The position numbers and the translations under genes were made by a program. Below are positions 24,296 through 26,782 of a stretch of DNA of 64,000 nt, piece after piece (within the stretch, counting starts at the first letter, position 1; every line of letters starts with the position of its first letter). The stretch is from Nostoc sp. NOS(2021) (lineage in GTDB: Bacteria > Cyanobacteriota > Cyanobacteriia > Cyanobacteriales > Nostocaceae). The stretch covers positions 1 through 64,000 of the forward strand of contig NZ_JABXKM010000344.1 of assembly GCF_017115025.1 (NCBI RefSeq). The letters are read 5' to 3'. The notes below the pieces were generated by a model. It ran no database searches. It had not been told where the DNA came from and saw only the letters and a program-made list of their open reading frames with translations.

Positions 24296-24333
24296 AAAAA
24301 CCGTGGTTGAATTTTTAGCAACCACGGTTTTTT
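24296..24333 (+). terminator. Rho-independent terminator
   Basis: AAAAACCGTGGTTG and CAACCACGGTTTTTT form a 14-bp stem with a nine-base loop and a T-run, 40 bp after the 23528-24256 gene. Confidence 0.92.
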
Positions 24334-24387
24334 CATCGTTTTAATAGTAGAATGTGTAGATAAGTTCAGCCTCAAGTGAGCAAAACT

Positions 24388-25543
24388 ATGCTAGAACTCT
24401 TAAATATCAAGTGCGAAGTAGAAAGGTTGTCTAATATCTTGACCAAGGCTGAAGGCTGTCTTTGACCTCCGAGAACTGAGTGCAAGAATCGAGGACTTGA
24501 ATCAATTCATTTCTCAACCTACTTTCTGGCATAATTCTGTCATTTTCTATCAGAAACTTGAAGAAATTGAATCACTCAAGGCTCAAAAGAAACAATATCA
24601 GCGATCGCACTTCATTCTAGAAGATATCAAGGCTGCACTAGAGCTACTAGAATTATCTGCTGATCAGGAATTGTTGCAAGAGGCGCAAACCAATCTTATT
24701 CACCTCCAGCAAGAACTTGAAATAGTAGAAATACAACAATTACTGTCTGACCCCCACGACCAAAAGGGGGCATTCTTGACAATTACGGCTGAGGTTGGAA
24801 GTATAGATGCTCAGTCTTGGGCAGCTATGTTATTGCAGCTATACTATCGTTGGGCAGTAAATCATCATCATAAAGTATATCTAGTGCAAGAGTCAGCAGG
24901 TGATTTAGGAGGGTTCAAACATGCAATCCTAGAAATTACAGGGCGTTATGCTTATGGCTGACTCAAATCGGAACAAGGAACTCATGCAAGAATAGAGCGA
25001 ATTTCTTCTGTTCATGGCAATGGCAGGCGGCATACTTGCCTAGCTAGTGTAGAAGTCAGCCCGATTTTAGATGAGTCTGTTGATTTTGAGATTCCAAAGA
25101 AGGATTTAGAGATTACTTTGCCGCGCCCACAGAGGAATGTCAACCGCCCAGAAATATGGGTGCGGGTGTTTCACATTCCTACCGGGATTAGTGTATTTTG
25201 CGACCAACAGCGTAGTCAGATGCAAAACAAAGAGAAAGCCTTAGCTATTCTCAAGAGTAAACTGTTTGCGATGCCTACGGCTGGCTACGCCTACGCACTA
25301 GCCCAAGGTGTCCAACAAGTTGACGAAATTCAACCTCAGCAGATAAAATATCTATCTAAGAAGCTCATCCGTGAATATATCTTGCATCCTTACACCAAGG
25401 TGAAAGATTTACGTACCAATGTAGAAACAACTGTTGCGACAGAAGTATTAGACGGTAAGATTGATTTGTTTATCAAAGCCTATCTGCAACAGCTAAATCT
25501 TACTACTTCAGTGGGTAAAGAAACGCTTGATAATTTCAAGTAA
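24388..25543 (+). pseudogene. degenerate prfB (RF2) copy with frameshift site
   Basis: This is a full-length tandem relative of prfB (25660). ATG at 24388 leads to the frameshift site CTT-TGA-C with TGA at 24463-24465, at the same place as in the true gene. In the +1 frame it aligns with RF2 throughout, but an in-frame TGA at 24959-24961 replaces the Tyr codon of YAYGYL. The codon-recognition motif SPF is SSV. The GGQ motif that triggers peptide release is missing because of a four-residue deletion. A dispersed repeat adds about ten residues near 25268-25297. It cannot act as a release factor, though the second half stays open. Confidence 0.85.
25268..25297 (+). repeat. dispersed repeat inside the prfB copy
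   Basis: GCGATGCCTACGGCTGGCTA and the next ten bases match a ~30-bp repeat found at nine or more sites in the window. It keeps the reading frame open, encoding AMPTAGYAYA. Confidence 0.75.
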
Positions 25544-25659: not shown

Positions 25660-26782
25660 ATGGATGTCCTAGAACTTAAACGCGAAATCGAAACGTTGTC
25701 TGGCCGCCTGGGTAAAACCCAGGACTATCTTTGACGTACCTGCACTGACAGCCAAAATTCAAGACCTCGAAAAAATATCCGCTCAACCAGAATTTTGGGA
25801 TGACCAAACCCAAGCCCAAGAAACGCTACAAGAACTCAACGACCTGAAAGCCCACCTCCAGCAATACGATCGCTGGCACGCCAATCTCGAAGATACTAGG
25901 GCAGTTGTTGAGTTGTTGGAGTTAGAAACTGATGAGGCACTACTCCAAGAAGCCGAATCTACCATCACTAAACTGAATCGTGACCTGGATCAGTGGGAGT
26001 TACAACAGTTACTTTCTGGCCCCTATGATGCAGAAGGTGCTGTACTGACGATTAGTGCTGGTGCTGGTGGCACAGATGCTCAAGACTGGGCATTTATGCT
26101 GATGCGGATGTACACCCGTTGGGGCGAAGCTCACGGCTATAAGGTAACTTTAGCTGAAGAGTCGGAGGGTGATGAAGCCGGAATTAAATCGGCAACCTTA
26201 GAAATTACTGGTCGCTATGCCTATGGTTATTTGCGATCGGAGATGGGTACACATCGCTTAGTGCGGATTTCACCTTTTAATGCTAACGGCAAGCGACAAA
26301 CCAGTTTTGCCGGGGTGGAAGTGATGCCACAGATAGATAACTCTGTGAAGTTGGATATTCCAGATAAGGATTTGGAAATCACCACAACTCGCTCTGGTGG
26401 TAAAGGTGGGCAGAATGTCAACAAAGTAGAAACGGCGGTGCGGATTGTTCACCTTCCCACCGGTCTTGCCGTTCGTTGTACAGAAGAGCGATCGCAACTG
26501 CAAAATAAAGAAAAAGCCCTAAATCGCCTCAAAGCAAAGCTGTTGGTCATCGCCAAGGAGCAACGTGCCCAAGAAATTGCCGAAATTCGTGGCGATATGG
26601 TGGAAGCTTCCTGGGGAAACCAAATCCGTAACTATGTGTTTCACCCTTACCAGATGGTGAAAGATTTACGTACAAATACAGAAACAACGGCGATTGGCGA
26701 TGTGATGAACGGCGAATTTGATACATTCATCCAAGCTTATCTGCGTCAAGAAAATAAACTAGTAGAAAACACTCCGGCATAA
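25660..26782 (+). CDS. prfB: peptide chain release factor 2, programmed frameshift
   Basis: RF2 ends translation at UGA and UAA. The gene is read in two parts: 25660-25731, then 25733-26782 after a +1 shift at CTT-TGA-C (TGA at 25732-25734), the classical RF2 autoregulation in which low RF2 lets ribosomes shift. An AGGA lies six bases before the CTT, as the internal Shine-Dalgarno-like stimulator. The full product is about 373 residues. The recognition motif SPF occurs in [12 protein letters not shown], and the catalytic GGQ in [11 protein letters not shown]. All family features are intact. A degenerate copy with the same shift site lies 117 bp upstream. Confidence 0.95.

Follow-up and report, generated by a model that had tools for sequence, protein, structure and literature searches.

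The +1 frameshift in prfB is a textbook self-regulation circuit, which sets the level of the release factor RF2. As this circuit is described in PMC5009743, frameshifting increases as RF2 drops; in the account given by PMC4530459, the stop codon is recognised by domains 2 and 4 of RF2. The counts given for a survey of more than 12,000 genomes hold no UAG at the prfB frameshift position among 8,164 motif-bearing genomes (PMC12421855). Land plants have a chloroplast protein, PrfB3, which is described as RF2-related, as having lost both SPF and GGQ, and as stabilising or protecting petB mRNA (PMC5897788).

Here we describe prfB2, which, taken as a family, is very probably a conserved, non-catalytic RF2 paralogue. 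No cyanobacterial RF2 paralogue was described in the literature that we searched, most of which lay outside the subscription journals.

The prfB2 locus and its family

The window (the whole stretch of 64,000 nucleotides of Nostoc sp. NOS(2021) that was analysed) carries prfB2 at 24388-25543 on the + strand, directly 5′ of an intact prfB (Table 1). The +1 frame of prfB2 runs from 24464 to 25543 with a single internal stop, the TGA at 24959-24961. The sequences on the two sides of this stop score above the Pfam cut-offs for PCRF and RF-1, and both halves are RF2-derived, with Pfam matches well above chance. The initial annotation of this DNA had proposed such a relative just upstream of the true prfB, with SPF changed to SSV, GGQ lost by a small deletion, a second TGA interrupting the frame and UGA as the codon of both internal stops; all of this is borne out by our analysis, and the last point is informative as well as correct. 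It had also put CTT-TGA-C at the same codon in the two genes: the sites are indeed homologous, but the numbering was off by one, as the TGA is codon 26 in prfB2 and codon 25 in prfB. Since the window prfB2 is only 51% identical to the adjoining prfB, it is not a recent duplicate.

Table 1. Features of the prfB2-prfB region, in window positions
Feature	Position	Strand	Remarks
Putative terminator of the upstream gene	24300..24335	+	Inverted repeat ACCGTGGTT...AACCACGGT, then T-run; read from sequence
prfB2 zero-frame leader ORF	24388..24465	+	25 codons; codon 26 is the TGA
prfB2 +1 frameshift site CTT TGA C	24460..24466	+	CTT at 24460-24462
prfB2 body 3′ of the shift: domain 1 plus the beginning of domain 2	24464..24958	+	Pfam PCRF, E 1.1e-31
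prfB2 second in-frame stop TGA, then C	24959..24961	+	Common to 14/51 copies; TGG in nested copy L007
prfB2 body 3′ of the second TGA: remainder of domain 2, GGQ-less domain 3, domain 4	24962..25543	+	Pfam RF-1, E 1.3e-18
Recognition tripeptide position, SSV replacing SPF	25004..25012	+	Alignment
GGQ loop region of prfB2	25118..25144	+	4 codons fewer than prfB; gap at ~25135/25136
In-frame short dispersed repeat, part of MPTAGYAYA insertion	25278..25296	+	Repeat search
True prfB (RF2), intact	25660..26782	+	Own CTTTGAC at 25729-25735; NCBIfam TIGR00020 477.6 bits (cut-off 370)

By eye, the putative terminator of the upstream gene recurs 5′ of most prfB2 copies; a scan did not have the 24300..24335 repeat among its predictions. 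The MPTAGYAYA insertion is present in some prfB2 copies and missing from others, and the dispersed repeat within it has six matches in the window, itself included, at three mismatches or fewer, and none in shuffles.

Our searches covered 148 relatives, then 217 genomes of the family and later 291 of the order, chosen from a larger group; the query at the order level was a distant prfB2 copy. prfB2 lies directly 5′ of prfB in many genomes of the Nostocaceae (at least 7 of 56 genera), and among the matches listed in the order-level search it occurs in at least one further family, in two genomes (G119 and G373), while one genome from a third family, G142, has a broken relic 5′ of prfB. Full-length prfB2, in some cases carrying in-frame stops, was found in 29 of 53 genomes of the same genus; the other 24 comprise two with near-complete copies, two with frameshift-broken ones, ten with fragments, nine with nothing 5′ of prfB and one with no detected prfB; by our own tally, then, 22 of the 53 have a broken gene, fragments of it or none that we could find. 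A prfB2 piece of ~97-99 bases is also present at 88348-88446 of plasmid NZ_AP023443.1 of Nostoc sp. MS1, which was typed as conjugative. A phage origin of prfB2 was considered and rejected, as no match was found in viral contigs.

We aligned 51 full or near-full prfB2 copies; the fragment loci were omitted, as were L038, L039, L122 and L124. In a tree of 49 prfB2 proteins (two truncated copies being left aside) and 14 prfB proteins, one branch with a support of 100 (SH-aLRT) splits the two groups: prfB2 is a monophyletic, ancient tandem paralogue of prfB.

As controls we took prfB genes of at least 330 residues at 75% identity; of the 78 loci used, five yielded none (two of them, L115 and L122, with a split prfB match), and the 73 genes obtained all keep CTTTGA, GGQ and SPF and have no stop. 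GGQ is missing from 50 of the 51 prfB2 copies, that of the window included. The one copy that has it (L016, in G001) has a loop unlike that of prfB, so its GGQ was probably not copied from there, and GQ follows a different residue in a further four (L040, L112, L114 and L116). SPF is retained in 23/51; in a second class, of which the window copy is a member, an additional residue precedes the tripeptide and SPF is gone. Against TIGR00020, three stop-free prfB2 relatives reach 311.4, 345.1 and 342.4 bits and the two window halves 122.6 and 153.7, all below the cut-off of 370. A stop-bearing CTTTxx site is nevertheless kept in 50/51 copies, as CTTTGAC in 47, CTTTAAC in two and CTTTAGC in one, the N-terminus being replaced in the last; and a matching leader ATG, 24-26 codons before the site, is likewise found in 50 of the 51.

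In the true prfB we also noted, just 5′ of its frameshift site, a hairpin, CTGGG TAAAA CCCAG (window 25707-25723), which is predicted in all 73 extracted genes and includes a Shine-Dalgarno-like AGG in 67; its bases are nearly invariant, which leaves no room for a covariation test. The same hairpin was sought by eye in prfB2 leaders and was not seen there.

Constraint along prfB2

Omega was estimated with our own codon-model implementation on FastTree trees, with a break at codon column 167. Over 49 prfB2 copies it is 0.38 before that column and 0.32 after it (2dlnL 340 and 507 against omega = 1), over the 29 stop-free copies it is 0.32 (2dlnL 721), and for prfB it is 0.05 (13 and 30 genomes). 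prfB2 is thus constrained, moderately, and far less than prfB.

These values bear directly on the idea that the entire family consists of common pseudogene remnants left by an old duplication. prfB2 fragments and losses in many genomes would agree with it, but pseudogenes should have dN/dS of ~1 and accumulating stops, and we find omega of 0.32-0.38 and no internal stop in 30 of the 51 copies; at the family level a simple pseudogene is rejected by omega together with the stop-free orthologues, and, barring an effect of recombination or an error of the model on omega, we find the idea scarcely credible. Stops besides the shared TGA are seen in 9/51 copies (and additionally in L025, near its C-terminus), and individual copies carry stops or frameshifts, as in G018 and G019. 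The initial annotation had offered a decaying tandem duplicate as one reading and proposed a search for intact forms lacking GGQ; that search succeeded, with stop-free orthologues found, and decay, which does describe some individual copies, fails for a family that forms one constrained clade. The outcome which it had named for a simple pseudogene, dN/dS near 1 and no orthologue, was not obtained, omega being 0.57 and 0.38 on the two sides of the 24959 stop.

Strong conservation of nucleotides around the ATG and frameshift site, and a spacing between the end of prfB2 and prfB that at most loci does not exceed a few hundred bases, might instead suggest that prfB2 works not as a protein but as a DNA or RNA leader controlling prfB transcription or translation. 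However, constraint at the amino-acid level spans the whole length of the gene, and prfB2 and prfB are ~4.3 kb apart in G055 and G159; a leader function is very improbable.

The second UGA

The second TGA is common to 14 Nostoc prfB2 copies, one genome per species. Among these, omega is 0.57 before the TGA (2dlnL 26.1) and 0.38 after it (2dlnL 89.1), the latter becoming 0.358 (2dlnL 93.3) in the final alignment. The 14 copies look more relaxed 5′ of the TGA position than do 18 non-TGA copies, in which omega there is 0.35. These comparisons speak to the possibility that the functional protein of TGA alleles is a truncated product of ~189 residues, with domain 1 and a portion of domain 2. Retention of the TGA throughout a clade, and continued constraint 5′ of it, would agree with this, but the downstream part is constrained no less, and we hold such a product to be very improbable. 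For the same reason we do not favour the earlier proposal that prfB2 acts as a sensor through its N-terminal domain and frameshift site. Nor is a separate downstream protein likely, as the window copy has no ATG, GTG or TTG in the prfB2 frame between the TGA and 25118.

None of the 14 TGA copies has a later stop in the aligned part 3′ of the TGA, whereas neutral simulation on the same tree (2000 runs) gave later stops in 13.0 of 14 copies on average and in 8 of 14 at minimum. On tip branches of the 14, omega 3′ of the TGA is 0.334 (2dlnL 181.6), and on the window copy's own branch it is 0.386 (2dlnL 14.6); both values differ from 1. Six copies with sporadic stops have a likewise low tip omega of 0.383, so this measure is slow to respond, and a low tip omega alone is no proof of a copy still being used.

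On a tree of codons 130-230 from which the TGA codon was omitted (a quick tree, with some forks weakly supported), the TGA state needs two changes, which we read as a single gain in a 15-copy clade and a single loss in L007, where the codon is TGG (Trp). Outside the TGA clade the codon at column 167 is TAC, TGC, TGT, TTT, TTC or CTN. L007 (in G049) is also the sole copy of its clade to combine TGG at column 167 with TAG at the frameshift site. Trees of other prfB2 regions need three to six changes of the TGA state, synonymous divergence varies strongly along the gene, and the differing regional trees point to recombination among prfB2 alleles. With two to six changes needed, depending on the region, exchange with intact alleles could give a false appearance of selection.

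The window allele class has lost GGQ and SPF and still bears the marks of purifying selection, although there are also signs of recombination, which blurs these tests. Its TGA allele might be null, that is, a segregating pseudogene refreshed by recombination within a family that is functional elsewhere. Sporadic stops in other copies, repeated loss of prfB2, disagreement between regional trees, the SSV (rather than SPV) of the window copy, and the low tip omega even of the six sporadic-stop copies would all accord with this. Set against it are the age of the TGA on the local tree and its presence in 14 genomes, one per species, the lack of a later stop in 14/14 TGA copies, and constraint on the allele-specific stretch, where omega is 0.341 for columns 168-240 in 12 TGA copies (2dlnL 26.1) and 0.275 on the tip branches of the 14 for columns 168-216 (2dlnL 48.8). 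We regard a null allele as possible, though doubtful.

Other properties of the second stop say less. Its codon should have changed 3.2 to 5.5 times and changed once (P 0.03-0.17), so that the persistence of these three bases is weak evidence and could be chance; the UGA-C context, which recurs in 13/14 copies as at the frameshift stop, may merely reflect that the next codon is Leu. Synonymous divergence among 12 TGA copies dips to 0.07-0.12 in columns 144-192 against 0.14-0.37 elsewhere, through either the recent spread of a block or constraint on the RNA. Predicted RNA folds 3′ of the internal TGA have negative z-scores in all 14 copies (-0.3 to -2.7), and four non-TGA copies gave -3.1, 0.7, -0.9 and 1.1; as one non-TGA copy reaches -3.1, we claim no stimulatory RNA structure after this stop.

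A changed genetic code is unsupported: a working prfB adjoins prfB2, and no tRNA with a UCA anticodon was seen by ARAGORN on 30 of 67 tRNA loci and their neighbours, a few genes there having unclear anticodons. In the window's own genome, at least 25 tRNA genes are packed closely together (G000:C298, ~13.9-16.7 kb), and the anticodons of a few are unclear. The sole tRNA-Trp seen has an ordinary anticodon stem of five pairs and, by eye, an A at position 24. An A at this position of tRNA-Trp is probably common in bacteria. We also set aside a special tRNA-Trp, given the ordinary stem; A24, described as the classical UGA-suppressor change (PMC13092985), would be at most permissive.

A proposed role for PrfB2 and its relation to known systems

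The fold of PrfB2 was predicted from a 33-sequence alignment (pLDDT 80.9, replacing a poor 16-sequence model with pLDDT 44.5), and its best PDB match is E. coli RF2 (1gqe, E 3.9e-30), partly by construction as the alignment contained RF2s; it includes domains 2 and 4. On balance we lean towards PrfB2 being a non-catalytic RF2-like protein that is made when RF2 is scarce, occasional readthrough of the second UGA acting as an additional gate. Deletion in the GGQ loop would have removed peptide release while the RF2 fold and the frameshift switch were kept, and full-length PrfB2 would be made, via the +1 frameshift, chiefly when too little RF2 is available at UGA. Because a non-catalytic paralogue should not restore RF2, the switch most likely serves to make PrfB2 respond to RF2 activity. 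The predicted RF2-like fold, with its domains 2 and 4, makes binding to the ribosome or to RNA without release the most natural role, and PrfB2 most likely regulates termination, or a transcript, in this way.

In the window allele class, occasional near-cognate decoding of the second UGA, probably as Trp, would give the full-length protein, and this UGA would then be a second RF2-sensitive gate. Trp is the residue expected from near-cognate decoding of UGA. Low-level readthrough is favoured by the constrained frame 3′ of the UGA and by the fact that its sole loss is to Trp. Tentatively, and with less confidence than in the general reading, we suggest that PrfB2 of one Nostoc clade could be a two-step gauge of RF2, in which frameshift and readthrough together make output fall steeply as RF2 rises, and whose product acts on termination or on mRNAs. 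UAG is a stop for RF1 only, and L007, with TGG at the one position and UAG at the other, looks as if it had been released from RF2 control. A UAG at the frameshift site is in itself unusual, given its absence from the reported counts of the prfB survey (PMC12421855).

We put forward RF2 gating, frameshifting and readthrough of prfB2 as hypotheses read from sequence. The switch of prfB has seemingly been reused on a protein that, judged by its motifs, cannot be RF2, so that another product responds to RF2 activity; and if the second UGA is truly read through, prfB2 would offer a natural example, rare among bacteria, of a gene gated by two stop codons.

With RF2, as described in PMC5009743 and PMC12421855, prfB2 shares the PCRF and RF-1 layout, CTT-TGA-C near codon 25 and an adjacent locus. 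It differs in that GGQ is gone, SPF is lost in the window copy and others, scores fall under the NCBIfam prfB cut-off and one clade has a second UGA; the autoregulatory loop would be broken, its product being probably no working RF2. PrfH resembles prfB2 as a divergent relative of class-I release factors, and its profile matches the downstream half of the window prfB2 weakly, at 34.7 bits against a cut-off of 166.65; PrfH, however, retains GGQ and is without domain 1. Dom34/Pelota, described as a non-catalytic release-factor relative that acts on the ribosome, belongs to an unrelated archaeal/eukaryotic release-factor superfamily and offers an analogy of role only (PMC6514570).

The closest analogue of prfB2 is chloroplast PrfB3, although this is a land-plant protein acting in chloroplasts, and is likened to prfB2 by motif loss rather than orthology. 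To our knowledge PrfB3 has no frameshift site. Both are RF2 relatives without SPF and GGQ (SPF in the case of the window class), and PrfB3 is described as having been recruited to another role (PMC5897788). If our reading of prfB2 is true, it would be the cyanobacterial counterpart to PrfB3, a release factor turned regulator.
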